Of a stretch of 64,000 nt of DNA, positions 11,039-56,523 are shown one piece after another; positions within the stretch are counted from its first letter, which is position 1, and each line of letters begins with the position of its first letter. This DNA comes from Aureliella helgolandensis. GTDB lineage: Bacteria > Planctomycetota > Planctomycetia > Pirellulales > Pirellulaceae. Under the pieces are notes generated by a model, which saw only the letters and a program-made list of their open reading frames with translations, ran no database searches and had not been told where the DNA came from. The stretch lies in NCBI RefSeq assembly GCF_007752135.1, contig NZ_CP036298.1, positions 1,426,001 through 1,490,000 of the forward strand. Direction: 5' to 3'. The translations under genes and the position numbers were made by a program.

Positions 11039-11077
11039 TCGCCCTCGTCGCGAGTGCGTGGGCGGAGAATTCCCAGC

Positions 11078-11707: not shown

Positions 11708-11732
11708 GCAGGCATCTTCCAGGATAGAAACG

Positions 11733-11781
11733 AAAAAACACAAGCGTGGGAAAGAGATGGACTCTTACCCTGCGCTTGTGT
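11733..11781 (-). terminator. Rho-independent terminator of the RRM protein gene
   Basis: Read on the minus strand, ACACAAGCG (11781-11773) pairs perfectly with CGCTTGTGT (11746-11738), with further pairing inside (AAGAG with CTCTT). The stem is followed directly by TTTTTTCG. It lies between the stop of the RRM gene and the start of the SET gene. Confidence 0.85.
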
Positions 11782-11897
11782 CAGTATGTCATCGTTATCG
11801 TTTGTACTGGAAGAAACAGTTTTCGGCAGTCGTGCAGTCGGAACTGCAAGCATTCAAAGGCTATTGCAACCGGCAAAGCGATCGATAGCTTGGATGC

Positions 11898-12236: not shown

Positions 12237-13037
12237 GAACAAAACTCCAGAAACGTCCCGTCATTGCTTTTGGAATTAACAGCACACCGGGACCGAATCG
12301 TGCTGCCAATGCTTATTAAAGTGCACGCCAAAGCGGCGTTGCACTCAAATTTTGATAAATATTGGGTTGGATGGCATATTGCCTAAGGCGGAGGCGACCA
12401 GCAATCCCGAGCCTGGGAGCAATCCTGAATTGAAGGATCTGCACGCAGAGTGGCTAAGGGTGTGGTTCTCGATCGCAAGCAAGAAACCGGACGTAGGTTC
12501 GTATCGATCCATCAAACGTGCCTGGGGGATCATCACACTCGTACACGTTCGAACGATCCGGCGAAAGCAGATTTATATCGGTCTAGCGATATCTACATTG
12601 CTGGGATCATATCATCCTGGTCCTCAAAGGTCAAATAGAGTTTTGCGAATTGTTGAATTAATCCAGGTTTTCGCCTTGGGAACGCTGCCGCCGCGATTGC
12701 GTAAAGCTCGCGCCCGGCCCCAGGCTGTGTGGGCCCGCGCCGCGGTTGGACCTGGCGGCTGCGACCGGTTGCTTGCGGCTCCAGGGAGAGCTGTGGTTGA
12801 GCAAGCGTGGCGGGACTTGCAATTGGGATACAGCCCTGGAGTGGGATTGGTACAATTGCGGATTGTTGTGCAGTCGTCGCATGAGGTTCGTGAACCCAGT
12901 TTGGGGCATGAGCTTCGTGGGCATCGATGCACTCCAGTTGTACCCGCGGAGGGCCAGGTGTTTTGCACCGAGCGCTGGTATGCAGGGCATGGACCGGGGT
13001 GCGCGTTTTAACCACTGATTGTTTGGGATTAAGTCCG
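12237..13037. other. Long divergent intergenic region with no supported gene
   Basis: About 800 bases between the RRM gene and hemC. Open frames exist on both strands (12352-13011 forward and 12593-13213 reverse), but they overlap each other, contain no recognisable domain, and look like products of GC-rich sequence. The first 120 bases should hold the RRM leader and promoter. Nothing else was recognised. Confidence 0.5.
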
Positions 13038-13961
13038 TTGTCTACCATTCGTATCGGAACTCGTGGAAGCAAGCTGGCCGTATGGCAAGCCGAGTGGATT
13101 GCTGGCAGGCTAAAGCAGCGCGGATATGACGTTGAAATCGTGCTCATCTCCACCCGCGGGGATGTGTCGACCGAATCGCTACGCGTTGTTGGCGGGCAGG
13201 GATTGTTCACCAAGGAAATTCAGCGCGAGTTGCTTTCCGCTAGCGTCGATGTTGCGGTTCACAGTCTTAAAGACCTGCCGACAATTCCGGTGCCAGGGTT
13301 GAGCTTGGCGGCCGTACCGGAGCGGGAGACGACGGCCGATTGCCTGATCAGTCGTGGCAATGTTTCGTTTGAGGACTTGCCCGCTGGGGCTAGAGTCGGA
13401 ACGGGCAGCTCTCGACGCGGAGCCCAGCTCTTGGTCTGGCGTCCAGAGCTGGTCATCGCGGATATTCGAGGGAATGTCGACTCGCGCTTAAGGAAACTTG
13501 AGGAGGGGCAGTTCGATGCAATCGTTCTGGCTGCCGCTGGCCTAACGCGACTCAAGCTGACGCAGTGTATCACTGAACAGCTGCCCGAAGAGAGGATTTT
13601 GCCAGCCATCGGGCAGGGGGCACTCGGCCTGGAATGTCGCAGCGATGATGCGGAAACGCAAGCAGCTCTGGTGCAACTGAACGATCCGAAAAGCCAGGCG
13701 GAAGTTCTCGCCGAGCGCGCGTTCCTAGCATCCTTGCTGGCTGGTTGCCTCGCTCCCGTGGCTGCTATTGGACGCGTGAATCCAGATGGGCAGCTCAGTC
13801 TGCGTGGGCGAGTCTTATCGATAGATGGTAAGAGAGTTGTGGAAGGACGCGTGGTTGGCAATCCCAAGAGTGCGGAGATGCTCGGTAAGCAATTGGCGGA
13901 CGAGTTGATCGGCCAGGGGGCTGCTGAGCTAATCGCCATTGCCAAAGAGAACTCGCCGTGA
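13038..13961 (+). CDS. hemC: Hydroxymethylbilane synthase / porphobilinogen deaminase (hemC)
   Basis: Joins four porphobilinogen units into hydroxymethylbilane in haem synthesis. The 307-residue protein has the full family pattern: IRIGTRGSKLA at the N-terminus, VHSLKDLPT with the catalytic aspartate (Asp79), the arginine-rich GTGSSRRGAQL and ADIRGNVDSRL segments, and LLAGCLAPVAAIG with the dipyrromethane-anchoring cysteine (Cys237). The TTG at 13038 is chosen because it gives the usual MSTIRIGTRGSK start; the open frame extends further upstream without matching the family. No other haem gene is adjacent. The cofactor cysteine is present, so it should be functional. Confidence 0.94.
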   Translation: MSTIRIGTRGSKLAVWQAEWIAGRLKQRGYDVEIVLISTRGDVSTESLRVVGGQGLFTKEIQRELLSASVDVAVHSLKDLPTIPVPGLSLAAVPERETTADCLISRGNVSFEDLPAGARVGTGSSRRGAQLLVWRPELVIADIRGNVDSRLRKLEEGQFDAIVLAAAGLTRLKLTQCITEQLPEERILPAIGQGALGLECRSDDAETQAALVQLNDPKSQAEVLAERAFLASLLAGCLAPVAAIGRVNPDGQLSLRGRVLSIDGKRVVEGRVVGNPKSAEMLGKQLADELIGQGAAELIAIAKENSP

Positions 13962-40130: not shown

Positions 40131-40497
40131 GGCATCTCTCCAGGTTTAGAGAACGCCCGTACGGGCGTATCTAGAAAAAAACGTGTGCTGTTTAACCTCG
40201 GCTTCGCCACCGCCGTCCGAAAAACAAGCTCCACGACAACGCACCTTGAGTCACAGCGAACGGTGGTCCGCTCTCTCATGGGTGCACTAGAAACTTAGGA
40301 CAGATTTGATGACTGTCAAATTTTGTCGCCTGGGAAATTTGTAGGATTGAGGGCTTTTTTGTTGATGACGGAGTAATTGCCTATTCATAGGCACTTTTCC
40401 GACGCGATAATCGTTAGGATCTGCGAGTTGCGGCTCTCCCAAATATCGGAGAGCTCTCCGATTGTGTTACCGGTTGTTTTATCGAGGGGTGAGTCTC
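40131..40497. other. Divergent control region between flp and the hybrid kinase
   Basis: About 370 bases between flp (minus) and the hybrid kinase (plus). It includes a perfect 16-bp palindrome in the flp leader (40153-40168) and an inverted repeat ATTTGA-TGACTG-TCAAAT at about 40307-40324. Both promoters must lie here. No sigma-54 site was recognised. Confidence 0.5.
40153..40168. promoter_or_regulatory. Perfect palindrome ACGCCCGTACGGGCGT in the flp leader
   Basis: A 16-bp exact palindrome starting 23 bases upstream of the flp start codon. In the mRNA it would form a very GC-rich hairpin ahead of the ribosome-binding site; on DNA it could be an operator. It is not a terminator for either strand as no T-run follows. 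Confidence 0.55.
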
Positions 40498-43400
40498 ATG
40501 CCATCGCGAATTCTTCGCCTGATTCCCCGTCGTCAGAGGGTTTGGGGTGGTTTGGGCTTGATTGGCGTCGCCCACCTACCGCTAGCCGCCTTCGGCAGCC
40601 AAAACCCCATCGCCTATATTCTGCCAATTGTGGTGACCTCCCTGTGCACGATGGCTTCGCACAAGCATGTGAAAATGATCGTGTTGTGGGCGATTACCCT
40701 TTCTGTGCTGAGCATGTGGAATGCGCCCGACGGAAATTCGACGGAGCATCGCCTACAATTGTTGGGACTCGCCTGTTCCCATCTCATTATTGGAGCGGCT
40801 CATGTGCTGATTCTACGCAGCCCCTGGGGGCCAGCACGTACCGAACTCCGGCTGGCCAATCGCCTCAAACGTCAATCACGGCACTTGCAGGAAGTCCTGC
40901 AGAATCAAGAGACGACCAAGCGCGACGTGGAACAACGCGCCGTCCTGCAGTTCGAATCCGATCGACGAACCTTGCTAGAGCATCTACCCGTGCACGTCGT
41001 GCAGAAGGATTGCGAGGGGCGGTTCACTTTTGTTTCGCAATCTTTTTGTCGATTGGTGGGTCGTGAGTATGCAGACGTCGTGGGGAAGGATGATTTTGAC
41101 CTGTTCCCCTCCGCGGGGGCGTCCAAGTACGTGGCTGATGATCAAATTGTCATGGACTCGGGCGAGGTCTTTAACGGAGTCGAGGAAACACAGCTGCCCG
41201 ACGGCTCTCACTCCTACATGCAAGTCCGCAAAGCCGCCATGCGAGACGACGACGGGAAGGTGATTGGCGTCCAGGGGGTATTTTGGGATATCACCGAGGA
41301 ATACATCAGTCGCAAGGAGTTGCAACGCATTGAATCGCGAGCCCACGCGCTGATCAATGCGACCCTCGATGCGGTACTCATTGTGGACAGTGAAGGTCGC
41401 GCATTGGATGCGAATCCCGCTTCGGAAACGATCCTCGGTTTCGCGCGTGGCGATGTGGCTACGCGACCCACCATCGGGTCGATCATGCATTTCAACGTGA
41501 TGGAGAACGGACAACGGGCGTCCGACGCCGAGAATCGGAATTCGAAGTTCGAACGCAAGGCATCGATCGATACCATTCTGAAATCGGCTACCGGCCGCCG
41601 CATTGAAGCTCGGCTGAGACGAAGCGACGGAACTTGGTTTGATGCCGAGATCTCAGCACACCCTCTTACGGTCGACGATTCGCAAGGCTGGGCTATTTTT
41701 ATTCGCGATATTACGCGTCGCAAAAAGGCGGAGCAGGAACTTCGATCTGCCAAGGAAGCTGCAGAAGAGGCCAACGCCACCAAGAGTGAATTTGTTGCCA
41801 ATGTCAGTCATGAACTACGCACTCCGTTGACCGGAATTGTAGGCCTGCATGAGCTGCTGGCGCGAAGCCCCCTCAACGAGCGCCAACACAACTATCTGCG
41901 GTTGGCGAAAGTCTCGGCCAGCAACCTGCTGACACTTATCGATGACCTTCTCGATTTCTCCAAAATCGAAGCTGGGCATATCGAAATCGTGTCCGCCCCA
42001 TTCTGCCTAGCCACCACGCTCGAGGAGGCAACACACTCCCTCGCTGCCAGAGCCCAGCTCAAAGGCTTGGAGCTGATGATTGACTTGGACGGTGAGGTGC
42101 CGCCGGTACTGCTAGGCGACGCGCACCGTATTAAGCAGGTGCTTATCAACCTCGTCGGCAATGCAATCAAATTTACGGAACGTGGCGATGTGCGTGTGCG
42201 GCTCACCCCTGCGCGTGGACCTTCTTCAGAACAGCGAACCCCCTCAGCCTCTCGAGCGTCTGGCTCCAGCGGGGAACGCAAGCGGGCTCCGCAGCCAGCC
42301 GTTGCAGCAGGAATTCCAGCAGAGGAATGCATCCACCTAAGGATTGAAGTTCTCGATAGTGGAATTGGTGTCGATGCCGAGCAACGCCAGTCGATTTTTG
42401 AAGCCTTTCATCAAGCGGATAGTAGTACCACACGAAGGTATGGAGGCACAGGACTCGGTTTGGCGATCTGCAAAGACCTTGTGCTGAAGATGCAGGGGAC
42501 TATCGGAGTTACCAATGCTTATGACATGGAGGGAAACCCCGCCTCTGGGAGTTGTTTTTTCTTCGAATTACCGTTTGTTGTTGGTGCAGAGCAGGAATTG
42601 CCGAACGTGAAGGCCGTCGCTCCCAAGTCTCACAAGGAAAAAATTGTGATGGCGATGGACAGCGGGCCCTGGCAAATACTGCTGCGACGGGAGATTGAAA
42701 GATTGGGGTACGATACCGTTCAGATACCGGTCGCCCGATTGGGAGATCGCAAACAGTCTGAATTTTTTGCAGCTGGAAATAACTCCATTGTTATCGTCGA
42801 TTTTCGAGAGTTGGAACGCCTCCGACTCGATAGTGCTCCGGTAGTCGAACGCTGGATTTTGCTCAATTTGCTGGCGCATGAACAACCGCAACATCTGCCC
42901 ACTTGGCTCAAACATGCCGATGTGGTTTGGTTGTGTCGGCCCGTCCGGCGGTCCGAGTTGCTCAGCGCGCTGACCAGCCATTCACCGAACAAGCCCAGCC
43001 CCAGTCCCCCAGTGCCAGTCAGCGAGAGTTTGCCCACGCGTGGTGCCCACGTGCTGCTGGTCGAAGACAGCACGATCAACCAAGTGATCCTCAAGGATAT
43101 GCTGGTAGGCTTGGGGCACCTTGTGACCACTGCCAGCAACGGCCGCGAAGCGGTGACGCTATGCAACCAGCAGGCCTTCGAATTGGTTTTGATGGATATC
43201 CAAATGCCAGATATTGATGGTATGGAAGCCACGCGCCAAATACGGCAAACCGAGTTGGCAACAGGAAAACACCAACTCATCTGTGCCCTGACGGCTCATG
43301 CAACGCGACAAGATCGTGAGTTGTGTACCGCCGCGGGAATGGATCTGTTTCTGGTCAAACCGATCTCGTTGGATTGCTTGAAAGTCGTCGTCGAGCAGGT

Positions 43401-43866
43401 ACAGGGAGGGCCTCACGCTGCGGAAGCACTCCAGTTTCAGCTCGGATCGCCGCTGGAAGAAAATGCAACTCCATTGGAAAATACGCCCGATAGGCTCGAT
43501 TCTCCGACACCGGAACAAGCCCTGCAAGATGCTCCGGATAGGGCCGCACTGCTCGTCATGCTGCATGACAACGAGGGTCTAATGAACGATGTCTTGCGTC
43601 TCCTTGGCAGGGAGTTGCCCAAGCTGGCGCGAAGCTTTCAAGCGGCACTTAAGGCCGAGGACTCCAAGCAAGCTCGACGGGCTGTTCATACGTTCAAGAG
43701 CAATGTACGCCAAGTAGGCCTTAAGAAACTGGGCGCGTACGCTGAGCAACTCGAATGCATGGCTCGCGATTCCAGTCTGGAGGAGCTGTCACCCCACGCC
43801 CCTGCCCTGCAGGATTTAGCGGGTGCTGTGGCAGATTGGGCCGATGGACTGCTAGACCCCTCCTAG
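40498..43866 (+). CDS. Hybrid histidine kinase with PAS, receiver and Hpt domains
   Basis: A 1122-residue kinase. Its first about 120 residues hold four hydrophobic segments. Then come two PAS domains (about 160-285, [20 protein letters not shown]; about 290-425, [20 protein letters not shown]), HisKA with the phosphorylated His in [17 protein letters not shown] (about 445), a HATPase with N, G1 and G2 boxes ([26 protein letters not shown]), a degenerate receiver-like stretch (about 720-840), a true receiver (about 855-975, [13 protein letters not shown] and [10 protein letters not shown]), and an Hpt-like domain (about 1030-1105) with [13 protein letters not shown]. The phosphorelay could pass from kinase to receiver to Hpt. 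The start ATG at 40498 has AGGGG upstream. It is divergent from flp, so pilus control is possible. Confidence 0.93.
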
Positions 43867-43880
43867 CTCTCAAGCGTTTA

Positions 43881-46169
43881 TCACTGTGGGGCTTTGTAGG
43901 CTTGGTTGAACAAGTCCAGTTGTTGTTGGGCTTCGACTGCCGCCTGCTCGGCCGCCTCCAGTTCCGCTTGCAACTGGCTTGTCATGGTCTGCTGATCGGT
44001 CAAGGCCGACTGCGCGGCGCTCTGTTCCTCGGCAGCCTGCTTGGCCTGCGCTTGAAGACTCGCCAATTGCTGATTGAGAGCTTCTAAGCGGACAGCCATC
44101 TCTTGCATCTTTGCACTTCGTTGATCTTGCTCCTCCACGGCGGCGGCCAATTGCTCGGTCAATTTCCCTGCAGCAGCGGCAGCGGTTTGCGCTGCAGTAT
44201 TCAGTTCAGCTGCTTTCTGCTCCAACGCCAGTTTTTCTGCAGCGGCCTTTTCCAAGGCTGCACGAGCAAGCTCCATTTGTGCCTGCTTTTGAGCCAGGCT
44301 CTGGGCGGCAGTCTGGGACGCTGCTAGCAGGGTTGCCTGAGTTGCTTCCTTGGCGGCAACTTCGGTCATCTGCTGCTTGACCAAGGCATCCAATTCTGCG
44401 ACTTGGGATCGCTTGAGCTTGGTGGCTTCGTTTACCTTCAGCAACGCCTCCTTGGCGGCGGCGAGAGCTGCCTCTAATTCCGCCACTTGGGCTTGTCGCG
44501 TTGTGCTCTGGGCGGTCAATTCCGTCAGTTCGGATTGTGCACCGGCTAAGCTCTTCTGACTATTGGATGCCGTCGCTTGCAACGCGGCCAATGCCTGCTG
44601 GGCTTCGGTGGTGGCTAGCTGGGATTTCTCTGCCACTTGGTGGAGTGTGGTCACCTCCGTTTCGATCGCTAGGAAGCTTTGTTTGGCAGCTTCCAAACGA
44701 CTTTCAATCGAAGGTGGATTGGCCGCGATCAACTGGACTTGCTCCGGATCGGCGGTTTGCCAAATCTGCACTTTGCCATTCCAGTCGCCACCCGCTATCT
44801 GTGCTGCATCACCGGTTAACGCGACTTCCAACGCCGTTTCACTGAGGCCAGAGAACTCTTTTTGCAACTCACCGGCGGCGTTCCACCACTTTATCTTGGA
44901 GTCGCGACCTGCGGATGCCAGGGATCCATCATGGGCATAGGCGACGGCGGTGGCACCACCACCATGCGCGTTCCATGACTTGATCTCCTTGCTTTCAGGC
45001 ATGTCCCACAGTTTGATCGTTCCGTCCAAACTGGCGGAGGCGAGGACGTTGGAATCGGCACGAAAGTCAATCGCTCGAATCTCGCCTTTGTGACCAGCTA
45101 GTTCGGCATACAGCAGACCACTATCGGCTTCCCAAACGATCAACCCGTTGCTGCGATCACTGGACGCCAACAAGACGCCGTCGGGGCTAAAACGCAACGC
45201 AAAAATCCAGTCGGTGTGCTTCTTCAGCTCCTGGACCTGCTCGCCAGAGAGCGAGTCGAAAATGCGAATGATCTTTTGAGGACCGGCAATGGCAATTCGC
45301 TTCTTGTCGGGAGAAATATCCGCTGCCAATACGGTATCCAATTCGTCACCCACCTTGGTGATACGCTCGCCGGTGGCGATATCGACCAAGACCGCGCACC
45401 CGCTGTGGCTGTGTTTACCACCTGCGATGAGTAGTTGTTTACCGTCGCGCGTAAAGGTAAGCGATTGCGGCTCGCCTTCAGGAAAGGGCAGGACTCCCAG
45501 CAGTTCACCGGATTGAGCATGGTACAGGACGACCTGCTCTTGACCACCGACGGCAATCAGGGGCGCCCATGGGCTGGCCGCCATCGCGGCGATTGCGGCA
45601 CTCCGTTCGGTTTCCACGACCGGCTGTGCGAGCAGACTCTCGGGCATGGGAGGCGGGCCATCGGGCTTGCCGAGTGAAACCGTCCCCAGCATGGCTGTGG
45701 CAGCACTGCTGGCCCGCTTGATCTTACTGCCTGAATTCTCAGGCATCCCCTGTTCAATCCATAGCTTGAGGAGGTCTTGCTTCTCCTTGGCAATCGCGTC
45801 TTCATCGGGTGGCATGAAGGGGCGTTCCGAATGATTGACCAACGCGTACAATCGCGATCCGCCAGGATTGCCTGAAGCGATCACATCACCACTGGAACCG
45901 CCGGCCATCACGCCCGTGTAAGTGTCGAGAGCCAAATCACTCGCCTTGTCCCCTTCGGCGTGGCAGGCAGTGCAGTGCTCGCGAAAGATCGGTTTGATGT
46001 GATCGTCAAACGTAATTTTCTTTTCGGCAGGTTCGTCGGCCATGCTCCGCAACGGATTGGCGGAAACGCCGCACAGTAGACCGAATGCCAATGGAGTCGC
46101 AGAGCCAATCCAACGCAGTGCGCGAACGCCAAGTGATGGCGGAGAGCTGGTTTTCGTGGGGTGAATCAT
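43881..46169 (-). CDS. Cytochrome c/WD40 repeat protein with C-terminal coiled coil
   Basis: A 762-residue exported protein. The N-terminus has a hydrophobic stretch at about 22-45 and then a planctomycete-type cytochrome c domain (about 50-150) with CTACH at 66-70 for covalent haem and PFMPPDEDA as the distal Met-containing loop. WD40-type repeats fill about 185-475, for example FALRFSPDGVLLASSDRSNG and LWDMPESKEIKSWNAHGG, likely one seven-bladed propeller. The last 280 residues are a long Ala/Gln/Glu-rich coiled coil (QVAELEAALAAAKEALLKV and similar). Coiled coils this long suggest oligomerisation or surface anchoring. It ends the DUF1501/PPC/DUF1549 gene run on the minus strand. Function unknown. 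Confidence 0.9.
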   Translation of the reverse strand: MIHPTKTSSPPSLGVRALRWIGSATPLAFGLLCGVSANPLRSMADEPAEKKITFDDHIKPIFREHCTACHAEGDKASDLALDTYTGVMAGGSSGDVIASGNPGGSRLYALVNHSERPFMPPDEDAIAKEKQDLLKLWIEQGMPENSGSKIKRASSAATAMLGTVSLGKPDGPPPMPESLLAQPVVETERSAAIAAMAASPWAPLIAVGGQEQVVLYHAQSGELLGVLPFPEGEPQSLTFTRDGKQLLIAGGKHSHSGCAVLVDIATGERITKVGDELDTVLAADISPDKKRIAIAGPQKIIRIFDSLSGEQVQELKKHTDWIFALRFSPDGVLLASSDRSNGLIVWEADSGLLYAELAGHKGEIRAIDFRADSNVLASASLDGTIKLWDMPESKEIKSWNAHGGGATAVAYAHDGSLASAGRDSKIKWWNAAGELQKEFSGLSETALEVALTGDAAQIAGGDWNGKVQIWQTADPEQVQLIAANPPSIESRLEAAKQSFLAIETEVTTLHQVAEKSQLATTEAQQALAALQATASNSQKSLAGAQSELTELTAQSTTRQAQVAELEAALAAAKEALLKVNEATKLKRSQVAELDALVKQQMTEVAAKEATQATLLAASQTAAQSLAQKQAQMELARAALEKAAAEKLALEQKAAELNTAAQTAAAAAGKLTEQLAAAVEEQDQRSAKMQEMAVRLEALNQQLASLQAQAKQAAEEQSAAQSALTDQQTMTSQLQAELEAAEQAAVEAQQQLDLFNQAYKAPQ

Positions 46170-46420
46170 ATTGTTGGACTTCTTCCTAGTGCTTCGTTAC
46201 AGCATGATTATTGAGATGCTCCAGACGAAGGTGGTTCGCACCCAAAGCCGGAACGGCCCTGTGGGGGCTTTGTTTCTGCGCGTTGGACCGCTTCTCCCGA
46301 CGCGCGACTAACCCCAATTCCTGGTATGGGCCAGCACCAACGTGCTTGGAGCCCCATTGAACCTCTCGCTTCGCCTGCCGCTTGTGCCTGTATTGGGGCA
46401 ATGGGCAGGCGTCGCCTGCG

Positions 46421-48853
46421 TTAATGGTTGAACATAAACTCTCGGCTGTTCAGGACAGCCCAAAAGGCATCCTCGAGACCGACCGTCTCATTGCCAGCGT
46501 CTGCAACCATCTTAGTCAGTGTTCCCAGTTCCAGCTCCGTCGGTTTTCGAGAAAGGCATCGCATGTAGATGCGTTCCAGAATCTGCTGAGTGCTCAAGCC
46601 CTGCTCCTGCCAGGAAGGAATCAGCTTGCCTTGAGCAATCTTGCCCTGCGTTGAGCTGCCATTGAGCAGGTGCAGAGCTTGCGACAGTGATGGATCGGTG
46701 CTGGCTTCGCAATCACAGACCGTTGTCCGAGGTGACCTTCCGAAGGTCGTTAGGAAATAGGTGCTGGTGCTCCCATCTGCGATGTGGACAGCGCGAGCGC
46801 CTTGGGGCAAACCGCGGAACTTGTCCTTGGTCGCGGTTGCTTGCGAGATGCAATCCAAAAGCATTTCTGCAGGGACGCGTCGGACCTGCGCGAAGGCATA
46901 GTTCCGAGTATCCGAGCGATTGGACTCATTCGGCTGGGTGCTGCGTTGGTATGTCTGTGAATTACAAATGTCACGCACCAATTGTTTGAGATCGAATTCG
47001 TACTCGATTAACTTTTCCCCCAGTGCATCAAACAAGGCTGGATTGCTGGCTGGATTGCTAACGCGAATGTCATCCACGGGCTGCACGATGCCAACCCCCA
47101 TGAATTGAGCCCAAACGCGATTGGCAATGCTGGTCGCGAAGAAGGGATTTTCGGGACTTGTGATCCAGTCCGCTAGGACTTGGCGGCGATCCTCCCCTTT
47201 AATCTCGGGCTGTGGTCCGCCGAGAAATGTGGGAGGAACTGGTTTGCCAGAAAGTGGGTGGTTGATCTCTCCGCTGCCGCGGTTGAAGACGATGACTTCG
47301 CGGTAGTCTTCGCCCGTCTTACGCCCGATTTGCGAAAAGAAGGAGGTGAATCCGTAGTAGTCGTTCATCGTCCAGCGATCGAACGGGTGATTGTGGCACT
47401 GCGCACATTGAGTGCGAATCCCCATGAACACCTGAGCCACGTTTTCGGCCGTCTTGATCGTGTCGCGTTCCACCTGATAGAAATTGGTGGCTGGTTGCTC
47501 GAAGACTCCTCCACTGGAAGCCAGCATCTCGCGCACAATCTGGTCGATGGGTGTGTCGGCAGCCAGTTTGTTGGTGATCCAGCTTGAGTACTGGAACGCC
47601 GCTTTGTAGCTCACTTGGTTGTCGCTCTTGACGAGTAACAGTTGTGCCCAACGCATGGCCCAGATCTCGCTGAATTCCTTCCGCTGAAGAAGGCGATCGA
47701 CGAGCTTGGCACGTCGGTCTGGAGAGGTGTCGGCCATGAACTCCGCCAGCTCTTCTTCGGTTGGAAGAAGCCCCACGATGTCGATCGTTACCCGTCTGAT
47801 AAATTCTTCGTCAGTGCAGGTGCCGCTCGGCAGAATTCGCAATTTCTGCAGTTTGGCGGCCACCAGCTCGTCGATGTAGTTGCCGGTGACTTCAGGTGGC
47901 GTGTAATCCAAGCCCGAGGGCAAGGCTAGGATTTGGGAACCGACCGTATGGGTGTCGAACCGCGCCATTACAAAGGCTTCACCACGAACTCCGGCGGTAA
48001 CGGCACCTTGGTCGTTGACGGCGGCCGTCAGTTCATTGTTGGTCGTAAAGGCGGCCAGTGAGGTCACGTCGCGGGTCGTGCCGTCACTGAAATGAGCGAC
48101 TGCAACCATTCGCTGGGCGGCTCCCTCTCCCTCCATCACCGCTTCTGGCGGAAATAACTCGACCTGGGTGCACGTGGGAGGTGCTTGGGCGTCGGCTGGC
48201 GCATCGTCCTGCAACCAGCTCAGCAAGGTCTTGGCATACTCACTGTCGGGTTCCATCCGCTTTCCGCCGGAGTGAGGTACAGCCCCGACGGCTTTGAGGT
48301 AAATCAAACTCTGCTCGGGAACCGCTAGGTTGATACGGCGAATCCCCAGCTCTCGCGTAATGCGCTGGTAGTCGCCCGCCGGATCGAAGCCGAACAGCGA
48401 AAGGCGAAAGCCATCTTTCCCACGCGCGGCACCATGGCAGGAACCTGTATTGCAACCCGTCCGCGTTAGAACGGGCATTACATCCAAGTGGAAACTGATG
48501 GGCTTGGTCACATCCGAGTTGGCGATCGCGACTTGGCTTTCGGCCGCCAGCTCACTCCAGCTGGCTGTCAATTTCGTTTCGCCGGCACCCATGGGGAGTA
48601 GACGGAAATCTCGCAACGTCGCCAGCTCTCCATTGGCGAGAGACCAAGCTGCTTGCTCGGTTACATCCAGGGTCACTCCGTCGCTGCGGGTGGCGACGGC
48701 GATCACATTCTGAAAATCGGCGCTGCCGTCGAGCCGGATGTCTGTGGGATAGACTGCTAGTTGAGTCCACTTCGGCTCTTCAGCTGTAGCGGATGGAGCT
48801 ACGAGAATTGACGTGGCGAACAATGCCGCAATAAGAGTCAACGTTTTAAGCAT
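46421..48853 (-). CDS. DUF1549/DUF1553 (PSD1) protein with CxxCH motifs
   Basis: An 810-residue secreted protein typical of planctomycetes. A signal peptide covers about 1-24 (LTLIAALFATSILVAPSATA). A Big_2-like Ig domain is at about 33-110, and a second at about 230-310. A cytochrome-like region (about 118-222) has CNTGSCH (Cys134, Cys139, His140). DUF1549 covers about 325-530 with CAQCHNHPFDRW at 483-494, a haem c CxxCH site. DUF1553 covers about 555-790 (RVWAQFMGVGIVQPVDDIR and LLNGSS). DUF1549/1553 proteins are believed to work with DUF1501 proteins in the periplasm, perhaps in degrading complex polymers, but the reaction is unknown. The ATG at 48853 is used. It is third in the minus-strand run DUF1501, PPC, this gene, WD40. 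Confidence 0.92.
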   Translation of the reverse strand: MLKTLTLIAALFATSILVAPSATAEEPKWTQLAVYPTDIRLDGSADFQNVIAVATRSDGVTLDVTEQAAWSLANGELATLRDFRLLPMGAGETKLTASWSELAAESQVAIANSDVTKPISFHLDVMPVLTRTGCNTGSCHGAARGKDGFRLSLFGFDPAGDYQRITRELGIRRINLAVPEQSLIYLKAVGAVPHSGGKRMEPDSEYAKTLLSWLQDDAPADAQAPPTCTQVELFPPEAVMEGEGAAQRMVAVAHFSDGTTRDVTSLAAFTTNNELTAAVNDQGAVTAGVRGEAFVMARFDTHTVGSQILALPSGLDYTPPEVTGNYIDELVAAKLQKLRILPSGTCTDEEFIRRVTIDIVGLLPTEEELAEFMADTSPDRRAKLVDRLLQRKEFSEIWAMRWAQLLLVKSDNQVSYKAAFQYSSWITNKLAADTPIDQIVREMLASSGGVFEQPATNFYQVERDTIKTAENVAQVFMGIRTQCAQCHNHPFDRWTMNDYYGFTSFFSQIGRKTGEDYREVIVFNRGSGEINHPLSGKPVPPTFLGGPQPEIKGEDRRQVLADWITSPENPFFATSIANRVWAQFMGVGIVQPVDDIRVSNPASNPALFDALGEKLIEYEFDLKQLVRDICNSQTYQRSTQPNESNRSDTRNYAFAQVRRVPAEMLLDCISQATATKDKFRGLPQGARAVHIADGSTSTYFLTTFGRSPRTTVCDCEASTDPSLSQALHLLNGSSTQGKIAQGKLIPSWQEQGLSTQQILERIYMRCLSRKPTELELGTLTKMVADAGNETVGLEDAFWAVLNSREFMFNH

Positions 48854-48995
48854 GATCGAATCCAATCGAACGGTAGGCTGAAATGCGAGTTTGAGTGCGA
48901 GGGGTGTAGCGGACCGTGGGGGAGAGCTCGCTGTGCTGGCGGGAAACCGTTACCGGCGCGTCCAGTAGGCCTTTCAGCACAACTGGGATCGGGAA

Positions 48996-51431
48996 CTACG
49001 GCTGAGCATCGTTGGGTTGAGTTCCGTCCAACAACGCTTTGGCTTGCCGGAGCTGCTCAAGCCGACTAAGTGGTTTCTCGGAAGGAGCGGCCGGTGCAGC
49101 GGGAGCCGCAGCTTTGGCCGGAGCCGCCGCTGTTTTGACCGGTGGGGCGATCAACTGAATTTCCCCGAGGCCTTCGGTTTGTACGATCTGACCACCACTC
49201 CGCGTAATCGTCGATTTTACGTAGAGCGTTTTGAATTGTCCGACCCTCGCGTCGGCAGCTACTTGCAATGGGAAAGAAATCTGCTGCATCCCGTCGGTGT
49301 ATTTGACGGTAGGTTGCGTGCTCGTTACGCCCGCCGGCAGGCCGACGAGTTCGAATTCCACTTCGCCTTCGGGCGGACGCTTGACTTCCAAGCCAACCGT
49401 GAAGGGAGCCGAAGCACCCGCTTCGGCAACGGTCTTGGCGAAGGTAAACGCAAAGTACCCGTCCTCAACATTGAGGGTGATGAATTCACTAGCCACCCAG
49501 ACATTGGAGTTGGTCGCTTTGGCACGCGCTAGAATCGTGATGGGATAACTGCCCAGGGCCGATTTTGCGTTGGCTGTCACCGGAATTCGAGCTTCCAATT
49601 GATCGCCTTCGATTTTCACCGAACCGCTCGCCGAGAGTCCCGAAGGATTGTAGAGAGAGCGCAGGTAGATGGGCTCCTTGAATCCCTCTTGCCGCGTCGC
49701 TTGTACCACGTATTCGGTATTTCCATTGCGAACGATGGGGACCTCGGGTTGGACTACCTTGATGGAAAAGGGGAGTGCTCGCGTTACCGCCAAGGCTAGG
49801 CGGTCGGAATCGTGCCCCCACATATCGCGATTGTTTTGCCCGCGGACCAACATCGTGCGTTGGTTCAACGTGCCCCGGACGCTAGCCCCTTCGGCCAATG
49901 GCTCGGCGATCAACGCTGCCAAGCAGGCCTTCACCGGAGCATCGGCTGAAGCCTTGATGAGCATGGGGATGTAGCTTTGGTTGGCGGCAATGGTCGGGGT
50001 GGTCAATTCAATGCCAGGTATTGCGTCTTCGATGTGCAGCCCCAGGTCCCCACTGAAGTTCTTGCGAGAGGCTCGCAGTAAAACCGCCATTTGCGCACCC
50101 TGCGGAATCTCCACCGTTTGTGACTGGTAGCGTTGGAGTTCGTCAATGGCCAGTTCTACGGCGACGGCTGCCGGAGCCACTTCGATGCGGTAAGCGTGCG
50201 TGGGGCTCCCTTCTTCCAACTGGTCTCGGATGGCTACCAAATACTCGCCGTCCTCAGGGATTTTGAACGCTTGAACGCTATCGGGGCCACCAGCGTCGTC
50301 ATTGGCAGCCAGTCGACCACCGGCAGCCTTGTGAATTTCGAGCCAGCTGTCGATGGGGGAGCGTAAGACGCGACGACCGTAGACCGTAAACTCAAGCTGT
50401 TGATCTTTTTTGCCCTTGAATTTGAACCAGTCCACATCCCCGTTTTCTTGAAGCACTCCATTGAACGCAACGGGAACATCGACTGCTGTTAGCGTCGCGC
50501 GATCGTCGTCGGGTTCACTCTCAGAGACGTTGGGAAGTTCGACGACGCGTAGTTTGTTCGGAGAGGGAGCGAGTTTGCCATCGCGGCTCGCAACGTAATT
50601 AAACTCTCCGAGAGTATCGGGCAGTTGGATTTCCTCTTGCCAGGTCTCTCCGGAAGCATCGACCAGCGTCGCATTGATCTTTTCACCCGGTTGGCCGCCC
50701 GCAGGGATGATGGCCAGGGGCCGTGGGAAATCACCCACGTGCAAACGGTATTGCGAACGATCGCTACCGCCAAAACTACTTTCGCGGACTTCGATAGTGT
50801 ACTTACCCGCTTGCGGAGCAACAAAGGCACACACGCAATCCTGCTGAAGCAATGGGGCGTCATCGCACCGGGCCACTTCGAAGCGATTTTCATCCAGTAT
50901 GGCAACGAACGGATCAAAGAACTCCGTCCCCAGACGCAGACCTTCGAGTTCTACCGTGAGCTTCTGCCCCTCAGCCAACTCGACCAAGTAGTAATCCACA
51001 TCCTCGTTCTTGACGATGCCATTGACTGTAGAATTCAGTGCCAACAATTGAGGGGTCGCAAAATCGCTATTCGGTTCCACTTCGTCTACTTGCGGCAAGC
51101 TCGTCACACCGAAGTAGCGGAGGTTGCTAATCCCACTGCTCGTCGCTAATCGGACCGCATGCAGTCCCGGTTCGCACGTCTCTGCGATCTTTAGCTTGGC
51201 ATGGACCTTCCCCTCGCCCTCCGGCTTGAGTTCGAGGACTTCAACTCCGGAATCGTAGAAGAGCAATTCCGTGACATCGCCCAGCCTCGCGCCGGTAATC
51301 AGCACGTCAGTCTCTGTACCACGTTGGAATCCAGCTGGAGTCAGCATGGTAACAGCCGGAGAATCTGCGTAGGCAGTGCCCATTCCTAGAGCTACGGCGA
51401 CAAACAATAGTACGCAACGATCAAACTTCAT
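48996..51431 (-). CDS. Secreted PPC-domain / Ig-like protein
   Basis: An 811-residue exported protein. The signal peptide is at about 1-22 (CVLLFVAVALGMGTAYADSP). PPC (pre-peptidase C-terminal) domains sit at about 130-240 (VDYYLVELAEGQKLTVEL) and about 325-425 (DVDWFKFKGKKDQQLEFTVY). An IPT/TIG-like start (PAVTMLTPAGFQRGTETDVL) and Ig-like blocks lie outside these. A low-complexity Ala/Pro stretch precedes the C-terminal helix (about 765-811). No catalytic residues are visible; a binding or structural role is inferred. It is 43 bases downstream of the DUF1501 gene and so almost certainly co-transcribed. Confidence 0.9.
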   Translation of the reverse strand: MKFDRCVLLFVAVALGMGTAYADSPAVTMLTPAGFQRGTETDVLITGARLGDVTELLFYDSGVEVLELKPEGEGKVHAKLKIAETCEPGLHAVRLATSSGISNLRYFGVTSLPQVDEVEPNSDFATPQLLALNSTVNGIVKNEDVDYYLVELAEGQKLTVELEGLRLGTEFFDPFVAILDENRFEVARCDDAPLLQQDCVCAFVAPQAGKYTIEVRESSFGGSDRSQYRLHVGDFPRPLAIIPAGGQPGEKINATLVDASGETWQEEIQLPDTLGEFNYVASRDGKLAPSPNKLRVVELPNVSESEPDDDRATLTAVDVPVAFNGVLQENGDVDWFKFKGKKDQQLEFTVYGRRVLRSPIDSWLEIHKAAGGRLAANDDAGGPDSVQAFKIPEDGEYLVAIRDQLEEGSPTHAYRIEVAPAAVAVELAIDELQRYQSQTVEIPQGAQMAVLLRASRKNFSGDLGLHIEDAIPGIELTTPTIAANQSYIPMLIKASADAPVKACLAALIAEPLAEGASVRGTLNQRTMLVRGQNNRDMWGHDSDRLALAVTRALPFSIKVVQPEVPIVRNGNTEYVVQATRQEGFKEPIYLRSLYNPSGLSASGSVKIEGDQLEARIPVTANAKSALGSYPITILARAKATNSNVWVASEFITLNVEDGYFAFTFAKTVAEAGASAPFTVGLEVKRPPEGEVEFELVGLPAGVTSTQPTVKYTDGMQQISFPLQVAADARVGQFKTLYVKSTITRSGGQIVQTEGLGEIQLIAPPVKTAAAPAKAAAPAAPAAPSEKPLSRLEQLRQAKALLDGTQPNDAQP

Positions 51432-51474
51432 GTCGGAGTCCTATGGAGCCTTAACCTAAGTAGTGCCGTCTTCG

Positions 51475-52773
51475 CTAAGCTAACAATTGCTTGATGACCT
51501 TGCCGCCGTCCACGATTTCGATAGGCCGGTCACCGGGACTCATCAATTCCTTGTCCGCCACAATGCCCAGCAAGTGATAGATCGTGGTGGCCAAATCCTC
51601 TGGCGAAACAGGATCTAAATCCGGTTCTGCTGCGGTCGGATCGGAGGCACCGTGCACGTAGCCACGCTTAATTCCACCTCCGGCCAACATTAGGCTGAAG
51701 ACCTTGGGCCAGTGATCGCGGCCCGCGTCGGAGTTGATCTTGGGAGTGCGCCCAAACTCTGTGGAGACCATGACCAGGGTTGTGTCGAGCAAGCCTCGCG
51801 AATCGAGGTCGTTCAACAGCACCGCCAGTCCCTGGTCGAGAGCGGGCATGCTGTTTCTGATTCCATTGGTAATGTTGGTGTGCATATCCCAGCCACCGTA
51901 GGTCATCGTTACCAGTCGTGCACCTGCTTCCACCAGGCGACGCGACAATAGCAAGCGTTGGCCTGCTTGATTGCGGCCATAGCGATCTCGCATGGCCGCA
52001 TCTTCCTTTTCAATGTCGAACGCGTCGCGAGCTTTTTCGGAGCTAATTAGGCTGTAGGCTCGCTCATAGAAACTATCCATGGCAGTTACCGAGTCTGCAT
52101 TGTGCCGCGAGCTGAAGTATTGGTTGACTGTGCTCAGTGCGTCTTGACGTCGAGCAAACCGCTCGGCATCGACGCCGCCGGCCAAATTTAGGTCTTGAAC
52201 CTTGAAGCCCGCCTTGGCTGGATCGGCCCCCAGACTAAACGGACCATACGAACTGCTCAGATAACCACTTCCCGCAAACTCGTTCGGTTGGTTGGGAATG
52301 CAGATGTAAGGGGGAAGATTGTTGCGCGGCCCATATTCGTGGCTGACCACACTACCGAAACTAGGGTAGATCAAGGCTGGACTCGGTTTGTAACCGGTGA
52401 ACATGTTATGGGTACCACGCTCGTGGGCCGCTTCTCCATGGCTCATCGAACGAATGATCGTGAACTTGTCTGCGCACTTTGCCAGTTGGGGTAGGGTCTG
52501 GCTAATGATTTCGCCAGTATTGGTCTTGATTGACCCCATTTCGCCCCGATACTCCAGCGGGCTGAAGGGCTTGGGGTCAAAAGACTCTTGCTGGGCCAGG
52601 CCACCCGGCAAGAAAATGTGAATGATGCTTTCCGCTTTGGCAGGGATGAAGTCGTAGTTCTTCTGATCACCTAAGACACTGCGCATCCGCAGCACATCGG
52701 ACAGGCACAACCCACCAAACGCACCGACCGTCATAAAATTGCGACGCGAAAGGCCATTACCAAGACACTTCAT
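51475..52773 (-). CDS. DUF1501 protein with Tat signal
   Basis: A 432-residue exported protein. The ATG at 52773 has GGAG 8-9 bases upstream and opens MKCLGNGLSRRNFMTVGAFG, a twin-arginine signal (SRRNFM). The DUF1501 family falls in the alkaline-phosphatase-like superfamily; visible segments include IIHIFLPGGLAQQESFDPKP near 60-80, MSHGEAAHERGTHNMFTGY (about 150), the STEFGRTPKINSDAGRDHW segment and MLAGGGIKRG. It usually pairs with DUF1549/1553 proteins, as here. The activity is unproven. It is the first gene of the run DUF1501, PPC, DUF1549/1553, WD40-cytochrome. Confidence 0.92.
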   Translation of the reverse strand: MKCLGNGLSRRNFMTVGAFGGLCLSDVLRMRSVLGDQKNYDFIPAKAESIIHIFLPGGLAQQESFDPKPFSPLEYRGEMGSIKTNTGEIISQTLPQLAKCADKFTIIRSMSHGEAAHERGTHNMFTGYKPSPALIYPSFGSVVSHEYGPRNNLPPYICIPNQPNEFAGSGYLSSSYGPFSLGADPAKAGFKVQDLNLAGGVDAERFARRQDALSTVNQYFSSRHNADSVTAMDSFYERAYSLISSEKARDAFDIEKEDAAMRDRYGRNQAGQRLLLSRRLVEAGARLVTMTYGGWDMHTNITNGIRNSMPALDQGLAVLLNDLDSRGLLDTTLVMVSTEFGRTPKINSDAGRDHWPKVFSLMLAGGGIKRGYVHGASDPTAAEPDLDPVSPEDLATTIYHLLGIVADKELMSPGDRPIEIVDGGKVIKQLLA

Positions 52774-53305: not shown

Positions 53306-54886
53306 CTACGGCAGCAACGGAGGATCCAACGGTGCGGGTTCGAAATCACTGGGGTGAACCCAGCCCGCTTTGACCTTCTCTCCAGCCATGTACCTTTCGT
53401 AAAAGTGGTCTGTGTCCTGACCTGAGTACGGGTAAGCATCAAAGATTCCTCCTTGGCCTGACATCCGTGGGTCTCCCTGGGCCGTCAGTTCGGTCACCAT
53501 CTGTTGCTCCAGCTCCACAGCGGTCGCAGAGTACTCGGAATCGCTGGCCAAATTGCGAATGCAATCCGGATCGGTAGCCACGTTGTACAGCTCGGTGTCG
53601 GGATGTTTGCCAAAGCAATATTCCCAAAATTGGAGTTCCGTACCGCTGCGGCGAAGATTCAAGACCAATGACTTGGTCGGGCTTCCATCGCAATTAAGGT
53701 AGCCCGTTTCTGGGTTGCCGCCTGGCCACCGAGTCGGCTCGTAGTTTTTGAGAAGTAGCCAGTCGCCGTGGCGAATCCCACGAATCGGATAGCCCACTCC
53801 ATTGGGGCGCCCGATATCATGGCGTTCTTTGCCAACCAAAACGTAATTGCGATATTCGGGGACCTCTTCTGGTGAGGTGGATGCCTCAAAGATGTCAAAG
53901 AGGCTGTGACCAGAAAGCGGTTGCATGCTAGGCCCAGGCTGCGAAACGCCAGCGGTTTGCAGGATTGTGGGAGCCAGATCCGTAAAGTTTACAAACTCCG
54001 TAACGCGTCGTCCGGCGGTCTCAATTCCTGCTGGCCAACGGATGGCCAACGGTATGTGATTGGAAGCCTCGTAGGCTTGTCCCTTGACGCGTGGGAAAGG
54101 CATTCCATGGTCACTGGTGGCGATGATTAGCGTGTTGTCGAGCTGCCCCGAAGCTTCGAGAGCTTGCAGGATTTTGCCTAGGTGCGAGTCGTAGTGCTCT
54201 ACTTCGATCGCGTAATCGAGCATGTCATGGCGCACCGTTTCTGTGTCTGGCCAGTAAGCGGGAACGCGATCGATATCTTCGAGTTGCTTGCCGAGCCGGA
54301 CCCCAGACTTATACTCGTAGCCGCGGTGTGGTTCGGTTGTACCGTACCAAAAGACCCATGGAGTATTCTCGGGAGTCTCCTGCAGGAAGTCTTGGAAGTT
54401 GGCCGCATAGTCGTTGTTGGAAATTCCTTGGGCGATCGGTTTGGCGTGCCGTTTGGAATAGTTCTTGCCGGTGATGGCACGCGGCTTGCCGTCAGTGTCT
54501 TCGGCAATGCCAGGCCCCCAGCCCTTGCCGGTATAGCCGGCGGTGTAACCGTCCATGGCCAAGCGTTCCATGAAGCCACCAAATTTAGACGGGAAGATGC
54601 ACATGTGGTTGCCCGCTTCCTCGAGCTGCCACGAGTAGCGTCCCGTCAAAAGAGTCGCTCGCGAGGGGGCGCATTTCGCATTGGGCGTATAGGCGTTCTG
54701 GAACAATAAGCCCTCGCGAGCGATGCGATCAAAATTGGGAGTTTGGACCCAATCGCATCCGTAGGCTCCGGCATGGCCAAACGACCAATCGTCTGCAATG
54801 GCGATCAGAATGTTCGGACGCTCAGCGGCCCAAGACGGGGAAGTCAGTCGAATTCCCCCGACGACTCCCAGTAGAAGCAGCACCAT
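53306..54886 (-). CDS. Secreted sulfatase (arylsulfatase/heparan-sulfatase type)
   Basis: About 526 residues from the ATG at 54886. The sulfatase active-site signature CAPSRATLLTGR is at 72-83; Cys72 would become formylglycine. Metal-binding Asp are in IAIADDWSFG (Asp32, Asp33) and ATSDHGMPFP supplies the second Asp-His set. A signal peptide (VLLLLGVVGGIRLTSPSWA) precedes the catalytic domain. The frame is also open upstream to a TTG at 54988, giving a longer N-terminus. Such sulfatases remove sulfate from algal or animal polysaccharides. No formylglycine-generating enzyme is in the window. The adjacent DUF1501 cluster has the same orientation. Confidence 0.9.
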   Translation of the reverse strand: MVLLLLGVVGGIRLTSPSWAAERPNILIAIADDWSFGHAGAYGCDWVQTPNFDRIAREGLLFQNAYTPNAKCAPSRATLLTGRYSWQLEEAGNHMCIFPSKFGGFMERLAMDGYTAGYTGKGWGPGIAEDTDGKPRAITGKNYSKRHAKPIAQGISNNDYAANFQDFLQETPENTPWVFWYGTTEPHRGYEYKSGVRLGKQLEDIDRVPAYWPDTETVRHDMLDYAIEVEHYDSHLGKILQALEASGQLDNTLIIATSDHGMPFPRVKGQAYEASNHIPLAIRWPAGIETAGRRVTEFVNFTDLAPTILQTAGVSQPGPSMQPLSGHSLFDIFEASTSPEEVPEYRNYVLVGKERHDIGRPNGVGYPIRGIRHGDWLLLKNYEPTRWPGGNPETGYLNCDGSPTKSLVLNLRRSGTELQFWEYCFGKHPDTELYNVATDPDCIRNLASDSEYSATAVELEQQMVTELTAQGDPRMSGQGGIFDAYPYSGQDTDHFYERYMAGEKVKAGWVHPSDFEPAPLDPPLLP

Positions 54887-55050
54887 CCATTGCGCCGTGG
54901 TGGACCATTGCGCAACGCTAGAGACTGGCGATTTCGCCCTGAAGTGGGGCCGGGAGGAGGAGGGCCATGGTAATGGTAACCGATGCAATGCAATGTCTTT
55001 CTAAAGGTGTTCCTGCGGGGGTTGCGCGAGAGGTGGCAACCGCTTCATCG

Positions 55051-56523
55051 TCAATCGAGTTTAATGGTCACCGTCTTGGTTTCCGTATAAGGACGCAAGC
55101 CGTCTTCACCCAGCTCACGACCATGGCCGGACATCTTGAAGCCACCAAACGGGGCGGCTGCATCGAATACGTCGTAACAATTGACCCAAACCGTACCCGC
55201 CCGTACCCGTCGCGCGTATTCATGCGCCTGAGTAATGTCTCGCGTCCAGATGGCGGCGGCCAGTCCGAAGCAGGTGGCGTTGGCGCGCTGGATCATCTCG
55301 TCCCAATCCTTGTATTTGAGCACGCTCATGACCGGTCCAAAAATTTCGTCTTGGGCAATCGCCATCGAGTCGGTGACACCTTCGAAAATAGTCGGCTCGA
55401 CGAAATAGCCAATGTCGCCAAACCGCTTGCCGCCCACGATGCAGTTGGCGCCTTCACGATTTCCTTGATCGATGTAGGACATGATCTTGTTGAACTGCGC
55501 CTCGTCGACTTGCGGTCCCTGTTCGGTGTCGTGGGCGAGCGGGCTACCCAGCTTGCGATTGGCAGCTAACTCCTTAAGTTTGCCCACAAATTCGTCATGC
55601 ACTCGCTCGTCGACAAACACGCGGCTGCCAGCACAGCAGCACTGCCCTTGATTGAAAAATAGTCCGAAGTGAGTACCTGCCGCGGCGGCATCCAAGTCGG
55701 CATCGGCGGCGACCACATTGGGGCTTTTTCCTCCCAGCTCAAAGGTCAATCGCTTCAGGGACTGGGAGGCGTTCTGCATGATTAGTTGGGCAGTGCGGTG
55801 TTCTCCCGTGAAAGCCACCTTGTCGATTCCAGGATGCTTCACAATTGCGCCTCCGGCGGTGGGGCCATACCCGGGGACAACGTTGATGACCCCATCAGGA
55901 ATCCCCGCGTCCTGGGCCAACTGTGCCATCCGCAGGCAGGTCAACGGCGTCTGCTCGGCGGGTTTCATGATCAGAGTACAACCAGCGGCCAACGCCGGTC
56001 CCCACTTCCATGCGGTCATCAACATGGGAAAGTTCCAGGGGATAATTTGCCCTACGACCCCCACCGGCTCCTTGCGAGTGTAGGTGAAGTAATTGCCTCG
56101 GATAGGAATGGTCGAACCGTGGATCTTGTCTGCAAATCCAGCGTAGTAACGCAAGCAATCGACGGCCAAAGGAATGTCTGCCGTCCGAGCATCGTTATAC
56201 GGCTTGCCATTGTCCAAACTCTCCAAGGCCGCTAGCTCGTCAATTTCTCCTTCGATCAGGTCGGCCAACCGGTACATGAGCCGTCCCCGGTCGCGCGCGT
56301 CCATGCGTCCCCAGGGACCGTTCTCAAATGCTTCACGCGCCGCCTCGACCGCCAGGTCAATGTCGGCCGCATCTCCTTCAGCCACGTCTGCTAGAGTCTC
56401 CTCCGTGGCCGGATTGATGGTGGGGAAGGTCTTGCCGCTCGCCGCAGCAAGCCATTTGCCACCGATGAAACATTCGGTGTGACGAATCTTGGGCAAAGCG
56501 GCAGTCGCAGAGGCAGTGGCCAT
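55051..56523 (-). CDS. NAD(P)-dependent aldehyde dehydrogenase
   Basis: A 490-residue enzyme of the classical ALDH superfamily. The catalytic Cys lies in [10 protein letters not shown] (about 297-306), the general base Glu in [11 protein letters not shown] (about 265), and the cofactor-binding [20 protein letters not shown] segment is intact. The triple-Cys motif matches class 1/2 ALDHs. It oxidises aldehydes to acids; the substrate cannot be told. The ATG at 56523 starts the frame. No operon partner is evident; the sulfatase ends of the neighbour lie downstream in the same direction. Confidence 0.94.

Follow-up and report, generated by a model that had tools for sequence, protein, structure and literature searches.

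A conserved four-gene DUF1501 unit of Planctomycetota and Verrucomicrobiota with predicted c-type haem sites and a candidate metal site

Genomic clusters that contain a DUF1501 gene were reported in 2012 as a conserved module, preferentially found in compartmentalised bacteria of the Planctomycetes-Verrucomicrobia-Chlamydiae (PVC) group, as related in passages of the papers that cite this work (PMC4452313, PMC4960237, PMC5122149); one such passage gives Akkermansia muciniphila as lacking the module (PMC4960237). According to excerpts of a 2017 study, PSCyt2 and PSCyt3 genes usually adjoin two unknown families, their functions are not known, and carbohydrate-binding modules occur fused to PSCyt genes (PMC5615132). 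DUF1501 also appears among the neighbours of planctomycete WD40 genes, in the excerpt available of PMC5587647. Here we describe a cluster of this kind in Aureliella helgolandensis: four genes for exported proteins that, from comparison of gene order, form a conserved operon-like unit across Planctomycetota and Verrucomicrobiota. They lie in a stretch of 64,000 nucleotides (the window), which corresponds to positions 1426001-1490000 of a single-contig genome of 8.44 Mb.

Functional hints in the literature are few. In Rhodopirellula baltica, the gene RB10051 encodes PSD1 and PSC2 domains, and its presumed regulator is the extracytoplasmic function (ECF) factor RB10049, which is raised under all three stresses (PMC2754498, in excerpt). 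The accessible text of the P. limnophila essential-gene paper names no such gene, and the word "cytochrome" is absent from its main text. Our literature search found DUF1501, DUF1549 and DUF1553 together in no single paper.

The unit consists of genes A, B, C and D, with the following features.

51475..52773, minus strand: gene A, exported DUF1501 protein with a modelled alkaline phosphatase/phosphodiesterase fold and a twin-arginine translocation (Tat) signal; 432 amino acids (aa); PF07394 at 383.7 bits, above the curated Pfam cut-off of 27
52741..52746, minus strand: twin-arginine pair, residues 10-11 of A, invariant in an alignment of 51 sequences
48996..51431, minus strand: gene B, exported PPC protein with an N-terminal immunoglobulin (Ig)-like domain; 811 aa; PF04151 at 54.4 bits (cut-off 25.9), in two stretches
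50784..51002, minus strand: best PPC domain of B, residues 144-216, by Pfam
46421..48853, minus strand: gene C, exported protein with the order Ig-like, Cx4CH (cytochrome-like), Ig-like (Big_2), DUF1549, DUF1553; 810 aa from ATG, 814 from the in-frame TTG at 48865
48434..48454, minus strand: haem-type site CNTGSCH (Cx4CH) of C, residues 134-140; Cys, Cys and His invariant in 55/55
47912..48178, minus strand: Big_2 Ig-like domain of C, model residues 226-314, from the VIA-align superposition on LigA 8gyr_B
47327..47875, minus strand: DUF1549 (PSCyt2) domain of C; PF07583 at 176.7 bits (cut-off 29.8)
47393..47407, minus strand: haem-type site CAQCH of C, residues 483-487, within DUF1549; invariant in 55/55
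46508..47188, minus strand: DUF1553 (PSD1) domain of C; PF07587 at 144.6 bits (cut-off 28.5); local match to DUF1800 between hidden Markov models
43881..46169, minus strand: gene D, exported protein with a PSCyt1 cytochrome c domain, a WD40 propeller and a coiled-coil tail; 762 aa; PF07635 at 45.0 bits (cut-off 22), PF00400 at 94.5 bits (cut-off 27)
45801..45974, minus strand: PSCyt1 domain of D, with CTACH (C66, C69, H70) and Met 119; invariant in 25/25
43884..44699, minus strand: coiled-coil tail of D, residues 491-762, assigned by composition and length

Coordinates and domains of the four open reading frames (ORFs) agree with a preliminary description made from the letters of the window, as do the gaps of 43 (A-B), 142 (B-C) and 251 bases (C-D); the B-C gap shrinks to 130 bases if C starts at TTG 48865. 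The leaders of B, C and D are of the Sec type, as judged by eye. A scan of the four proteins against NCBIfam gave no useful name, its SMC matches being to the coiled coil. A short palindrome, GCAGGCGACGCCTGC, lies directly past the stop codon of C, at about 46405-46419 of the window.

We compared gene order in three sets of loci (L numbers are our own labels): 40 around D, from 39 other genomes of the same order; 26 around C; and 80 named loci around D, the best 80 of at least 569. Genes were detected with profiles at thresholds of our choosing; the first two sets supplied the sequences for these profiles, which leaves only the third independent. L058 and L059 were excluded from the B profile, a fusion in L058 having given false B matches on C, and BLAST composition correction was switched off, since it masks the D gene of L016. 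By this mapping, A-B-C-D are collinear in 32/40, 18/26 and 44/80 loci. In the first set, the remaining loci are six that run into a contig end and two that are incomplete with room to spare (L016, L032). In the second, five are cut and L064, L201 and L204 hold A-B-C without D. In the third, 19 are cut, B is split into two frames in L114, L151 and L168, a wide gap occurs in L109, and D is followed by A in L146 and L163. Among named organisms, Blastopirellula marina DSM 3645 (L092) carries the core operon. Two planctomycetotal loci, L161 (Planctomycetes bacterium Pan216) and L166, hold all four genes in the order D-A-B-C, so proximity outweighs order; their C proteins form a clade of their own in the tree of C.

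By record label, the collinear loci of the third set comprise 34 of 54 from Planctomycetota, 9 of 23 from Verrucomicrobiota (L105, L110, L129, L133, L140, L141, L145, L147 and L148) and one of three unlabelled, some labels being doubtful, such as those of metagenome-assembled genomes (MAGs) named Akkermansia muciniphila or Kuenenia. A relative of D at E ≤1e-80 occurs in 41 of the 57 genomes of the order, as a single match in 39 of them. Across the phylum, 53 of 294 genomes have a C relative at E 1e-150. The best match reaches at least 43% identity in 48 of these; in the remaining five (G133, G148, G188, G250 and G254) it has 35-40% and looks like a paralogue. Among the 20 listed of the 241 genomes without a C match, none is from the same class. 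Median spacings are 118 (A-B), 31 (B-C) and 62 bases (C-D), with starts taken at the nearest Met, and B and C overlap by four bases in 10 of 50 loci.

The flanks behave differently: among 1736 ORFs flanking 140 loci, no family recurs in more than nine loci, which sets the end of the unit at its four genes. Fusions also join its members. In L058 a single ORF spans B and C. Elsewhere in the source genome, L070 (4398500-4415000) carries at 6183-13868 a diverged set of A, a fused B-C of 1581 aa, and D; L074 (4183000-4198000) carries at 5576-10900 a 1775-aa D-C fusion, PSCyt1-WD40-Cx4CH-DUF1549-DUF1553, next to a DUF1501 gene. Three further candidates for B-C fusion, with open frames above 1400 aa (L066, L200, L201), were rejected: their genes occupy separate frames, and the long one seems accidental. 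The C proteins of L105, L129, L141 and L148, all from Verrucomicrobiota, have an additional N-terminal D-like cytochrome domain (58-80 bits). Gene order in other planctomycetes, together with the B-C and D-C fusions, thus bears out the earlier proposal that the four genes are one unit, and we regard the conserved operon-like arrangement in both phyla as well shown.

The unit has many paralogues. The source genome contains 61 DUF1549 and 65 DUF1501 matches, and for 56 of the 65 DUF1501 genes a DUF1549 gene lies no more than 6 kb away on the same strand. Random placement gives a mean of 3.0 and at most 8 (300 placings), so this adjacency is not chance. In a quick tree of 84 C proteins, one branch with 91% support in the Shimodaira-Hasegawa-like approximate likelihood ratio test (SH-aLRT) separates the core set from 19 paralogues of the source genome, many of whose branches are long and unsure in placement. 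The Verrucomicrobiota fall into two neighbouring groups, compatible with one origin, and the nearest relatives of the window's C come from Pirellula MAGs (65% identity to L089), which makes membership of the source genome in the Pirellulaceae probable.

The chemistry of the unit is suggested first by its haem-type sites. The preliminary description listed CTACH in D and CAQCH in C, and both are present; it had overlooked CNTGSCH in C. Cx4CH and CxxCH are both found in 38/38 C proteins, and both Cys and the His of each motif are invariant in 55/55 aligned ones. Around the second motif, C483, C486, H487, N488, H489 and D492 are invariant in the same alignment. So is His 194, behind Cx4CH, a candidate sixth ligand; no Met of C is invariant. 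In D, CxxCH occurs in 39 of 40 proteins, the exception (L047) being cut by a contig end, and C66, C69, H70 and M119 are invariant in 25/25. PSCyt1 of D has the class I cytochrome c pattern of CxxCH with a distal Met, and M119 is the probable ligand. Altogether C and D would bear three c-type haem sites, two on C and one on D, and the invariance of the haem-binding residues makes a haem-c role plausible. The coiled coil reported behind the propeller of D does exist in the window but is not a fixed part of the protein: the tail measures 0-851 aa in 59 aligned D proteins, some of them cut by contig ends.

C passes the Pfam cut-offs of DUF1549 and DUF1553 in a single protein. Its N-terminal part has no Pfam cytochrome match, and the Cx4CH site sits between two Ig-like domains. 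The AlphaFold2 (AF2) model of C has a mean predicted local distance difference test (pLDDT) score of 86.1 and a predicted TM-score (pTM) of 0.83. Its Big_2 domain matches LigA at E 5e-8 in a profile search of solved structures and superposes on 8gyr_B with Z 15.6 and a root-mean-square deviation (rmsd) of 1.0 over 88 residues (VIA-align). Solved relatives of C at E <0.1 are Ig-like domains only, and the lists of similar folds are likewise filled by the Ig domain.

A more distant kinship concerns DUF1800. C has no match to PF08811 at Pfam E 0.01, nor to single DUF1800 sequences (probability 1-2%). Against a profile of 31 DUF1800 sequences, local hhalign gives a probability of 96.7% and E 4e-10 over 195 columns, all in the DUF1553 half; control pairs, two reversed and five unrelated, give E 0.038-0.65. 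By profile comparison, the DUF1553 half of C is homologous to DUF1800. A forced global alignment (98.6%) also pairs DUF1549 with the first half of DUF1800, CAQCHNHPFD coming to lie over the LGxGxYTE stretch. Neither CxxCH nor Cx4CH occurs in any of the 31 DUF1800 proteins, which makes the haem look like something added to the module, and not necessarily its catalytic core. Both DUF1800 genes of the source genome adjoin a DUF1501 gene. This adjacency, the frequent pairing of DUF1501 with DUF1549 and the DUF1553 match suggest that DUF1549-DUF1553 is a version of DUF1800 fitted with haem and still accompanied by the DUF1501 partner. A literature search aimed at this link, which covered few subscription journals, did not find DUF1800 together with DUF1549, DUF1553 or DUF1592.

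That partner, represented by A, begins with the twin-arginine signal MKCLGNGLSRRNFMTVGAFGGL; a motif of the RR type occurs in the first 40 residues of 47/48 A proteins longer than 400 aa. No solved relative is found by sequence at E 1. The AF2 model of A (pLDDT 82.4, pTM 0.81) is of the alkaline phosphatase/phosphodiesterase type. Among 50 matches listed, it resembles the nucleotide pyrophosphatase/phosphodiesterase (NPP) family, PafA and sulfatases with Z 17-20 at 11-16% identity; for NPPs and PafA, VIA-align gives Z 19-20 and rmsd 3.0-4.4 over 243-278 residues. Foldseek matches include LtaS, LtaP and YejM, envelope proteins with the fold of A. D66, H117, D296, H298, E339, R342, D353 and H354 are invariant in 51/51 aligned sequences, and the elements DxH, SEFGR and DH recur, by eye, in two DUF1501 proteins that adjoin DUF1800. 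These residues and shared elements make it likely that A carries a metal site, for which they are the candidates. The formylglycine motif of sulfatases is C/S-x-P-x-R; on reading the sequence by eye it is absent from A, the nearest string being CIPNQ.

In B, residues 25-96 match PF09099 at 22.2 bits (cut-off 22), and residues 23-102 weakly match the Ig-like domain of the quinohemoprotein amine dehydrogenase alpha subunit (17.7 bits, cut-off 274). A Sox-like covalent carrier in B was considered and rejected, there being no strictly conserved Cys (best column 35/49).

We tentatively favour, at somewhat less than even likelihood, a reading in which the four genes encode one exported complex, probably periplasmic or on the outer surface, that joins a metallohydrolase to c-type haems, acts on a phospho- or sulfo-ester, likely of a glycan, and passes electrons to respiration. 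A would fold and load its metal before Tat export, then remove or transfer a phosphoryl or sulfuryl group, while the Ig and PPC modules of B and C hold the substrate. The haem-bearing DUF1549-DUF1553 module of C would oxidise the substrate or an adjacent product. The class I cytochrome of D, with Met as its ligand, would take up electrons from the Cx4CH domain of C and feed them into the respiratory chain, with the propeller of D as docking platform and its tail as a stalk of variable length. The combination of a metallohydrolase fold, Ig/PPC modules and three predicted haems is what points to substrate chemistry outside the cell or in its envelope, the electrons being handed to respiration. 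Among substrate classes a glycan seems most likely, on account of the multiplied paralogues and of the carbohydrate-binding fusions in print (PMC5615132) rather than any sulfatase. Of the 53 genomes with a C match, 52 have COX1, against 173 of the 241 without one (Fisher p 4e-6, kinship ignored), and this association fits an electron sink; the sole C-positive genome without COX1 (G173) is a draft whose two congeners have the gene.

Several observations weigh against this reading. Kinship may account for the association with COX1. The DUF1800 relatives lack the haem motif, so the core reaction may be something other than redox, and the DUF1549 half, with CAQCH, aligns less surely to DUF1800, solely in the forced global alignment. 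CxxCH can bind zinc or nothing instead of haem, and the haem-site loops of the C model are weak, with block means of 58-69 pLDDT. For A, Foldseek gives E 4e-7 with TM-scores of just 0.26-0.48, a catalytic nucleophile is not assignable, and other DUF1501 proteins have Ser-His-x-Asp where A shows Ala-Gln-Gln-Glu. At the window locus the C-D gap measures 251 bases, and neither promoter-like nor terminator-like sites rise above shuffled sequence, so that co-transcription of the window genes is at most putative. The set itself is at times incomplete: L016 has D with only a paralogous C nearby, D is absent from 3 of the 26 C-centred loci despite room for it, and in 9 of 80 loci (L125, L131, L144, L149, L150, L152, L153, L156 and L158) D stands without C in spite of at least 1.6 kb of upstream DNA. 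Seven of these nine belong to Verrucomicrobiota, so the set is less strictly kept there.

An unlikely alternative, but one that deserves weight, is that the unit tailors the cell's own exported polymer: A would be a transferase or esterase for phospho or sulfo groups on an envelope glycan, gated or powered by C and D, and the role biosynthetic instead of catabolic. Haem-free DUF1800-DUF1501 genes are indeed placed, in a passage of PMC5122149, in operons with a bacterial chitin synthase and a sugar epimerase; LtaS, LtaP and YejM are among the Foldseek matches of A, and the order has 41 positive genomes, 39 of them with just one match, which suits housekeeping. The fold matches of A nevertheless include hydrolases and transferases alike, the flanks contribute no gene family found in more than nine loci, and the paralogue expansion is better suited to varied outside substrates.

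It is rather improbable that the unit is a structural scaffold of the PVC envelope, made of Ig, PPC, propeller and coiled-coil parts, with vestigial or regulatory haem and hydrolase components. Big_2 has relatives of the S-layer type, the tail varies in length, and DUF1501 clusters have been proposed, in a passage of PMC4452313, to accompany intracellular membranes; but haem and candidate metal residues that are invariant in two phyla point to selected chemistry.

Very little probability attaches to a sulfated-polysaccharide locus that includes the upstream sulfatase. That gene (53306-54988) does lie on the same strand, and freshwater Verrucomicrobia often have sulfatase genes near PSCyt genes, according to an excerpt of PMC5615132. 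The window sulfatase, however, gives only two tblastn matches above 80 bits (100 and 87 bits) in 60 loci, and the 25 commonest flank families listed include a sulfatase family present in 7 of 140 loci and a second in 3. The polysaccharide use that the preliminary description read from this neighbour accordingly loses its ground. As partners we rejected the sulfatase, the aldehyde dehydrogenase (55051-56523) and the histidine kinase, none being conserved beside the unit; the last, a hybrid enzyme with PAS, HisKA, response regulator and Hpt domains (window 40462-43866, plus strand), faces the unit's end. That the four genes form no functional unit and adjoin by descent alone is hardly credible: all loci may stem from one ancestral locus, the phyla are clustered in the tree of C and D stands without neighbours in some Verrucomicrobiota, yet flanking genes are not kept, the set is retained under a reshuffled order (L161, L166) and fusions of different combinations arose.

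A broader and rather improbable extension starts from an ancient haem-free DUF1501-DUF1800 hydrolase pair. In the line of Planctomycetota and Verrucomicrobiota, c-type haems set into its helical member would have converted this pair to yield electrons; the core of four genes would be the most widely kept version, and the dozens of paralogues substrate-specific copies. If this extension is true, glycan derivatives are cleaved and oxidised outside the cytoplasm and their electrons respired, a form of polymer use outside glycoside hydrolases, lyases and known oxidases. DUF1501 and DUF1549 are numerous, with 65 and 61 matches in one genome; the core operon, mostly single in its order, offers a test case for the function of the whole group, and our analysis names candidate haem and metal residues to change. 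It also ties the DUF1549-DUF1553 family to DUF1800-DUF1501 pairs, which are also found outside the two phyla.

Compared with known systems, A has its modelled fold in common with NPPs, PafA and sulfatases and differs from them by low identity and the lack of a formylglycine motif or assignable nucleophile. Sox thiosulfate oxidation combines periplasmic c-type haem proteins with a dimetal hydrolase and an Ig-like partner. This is a similar combination of parts, as an analogy only; no Cys of B is conserved strictly enough for a covalent carrier. From quinohemoprotein amine dehydrogenase the Ig-like domain alone resembles B, and the Ig domain of C gives Z 9.3-9.6 to it; the quinone-bearing subunit of the enzyme was not searched for. 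The DUF1800-DUF1501 pair likewise sets a Tat-signal DUF1501 protein next to a helical one, to which at least the DUF1553 half of C is homologous. It differs in its haem-free DUF1800 proteins (31/31), and its two loci in the source genome, 4.1-4.3 kb long, show no PPC or WD40-cytochrome gene among ORFs of at least 300 aa. The PSCyt2-PSD1 pairs of He et al. 2017 resemble the window in that DUF1549-DUF1553 adjoins a partner, with Big_2 and WD40 fusions noted; the passages seen describe pairs and domain combinations, as against a four-gene unit here (PMC5615132). With the PVC module of Kamneva et al. 2012, likened here through citing passages and not by gene lists, the common feature is that a DUF1501 gene and genes for exported proteins are clustered in a conserved way (PMC4452313, PMC4960237, PMC5122149), and the window unit is indeed a conserved cluster around DUF1501. 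Clusters of this kind and the neighbours of PSCyt2 were thus in print by 2012 and 2017, and "undescribed", the word of the preliminary description, is only partly right: what we report is a sharply delimited core within an already known type of cluster, new in its anatomy, rather than a wholly undescribed system.

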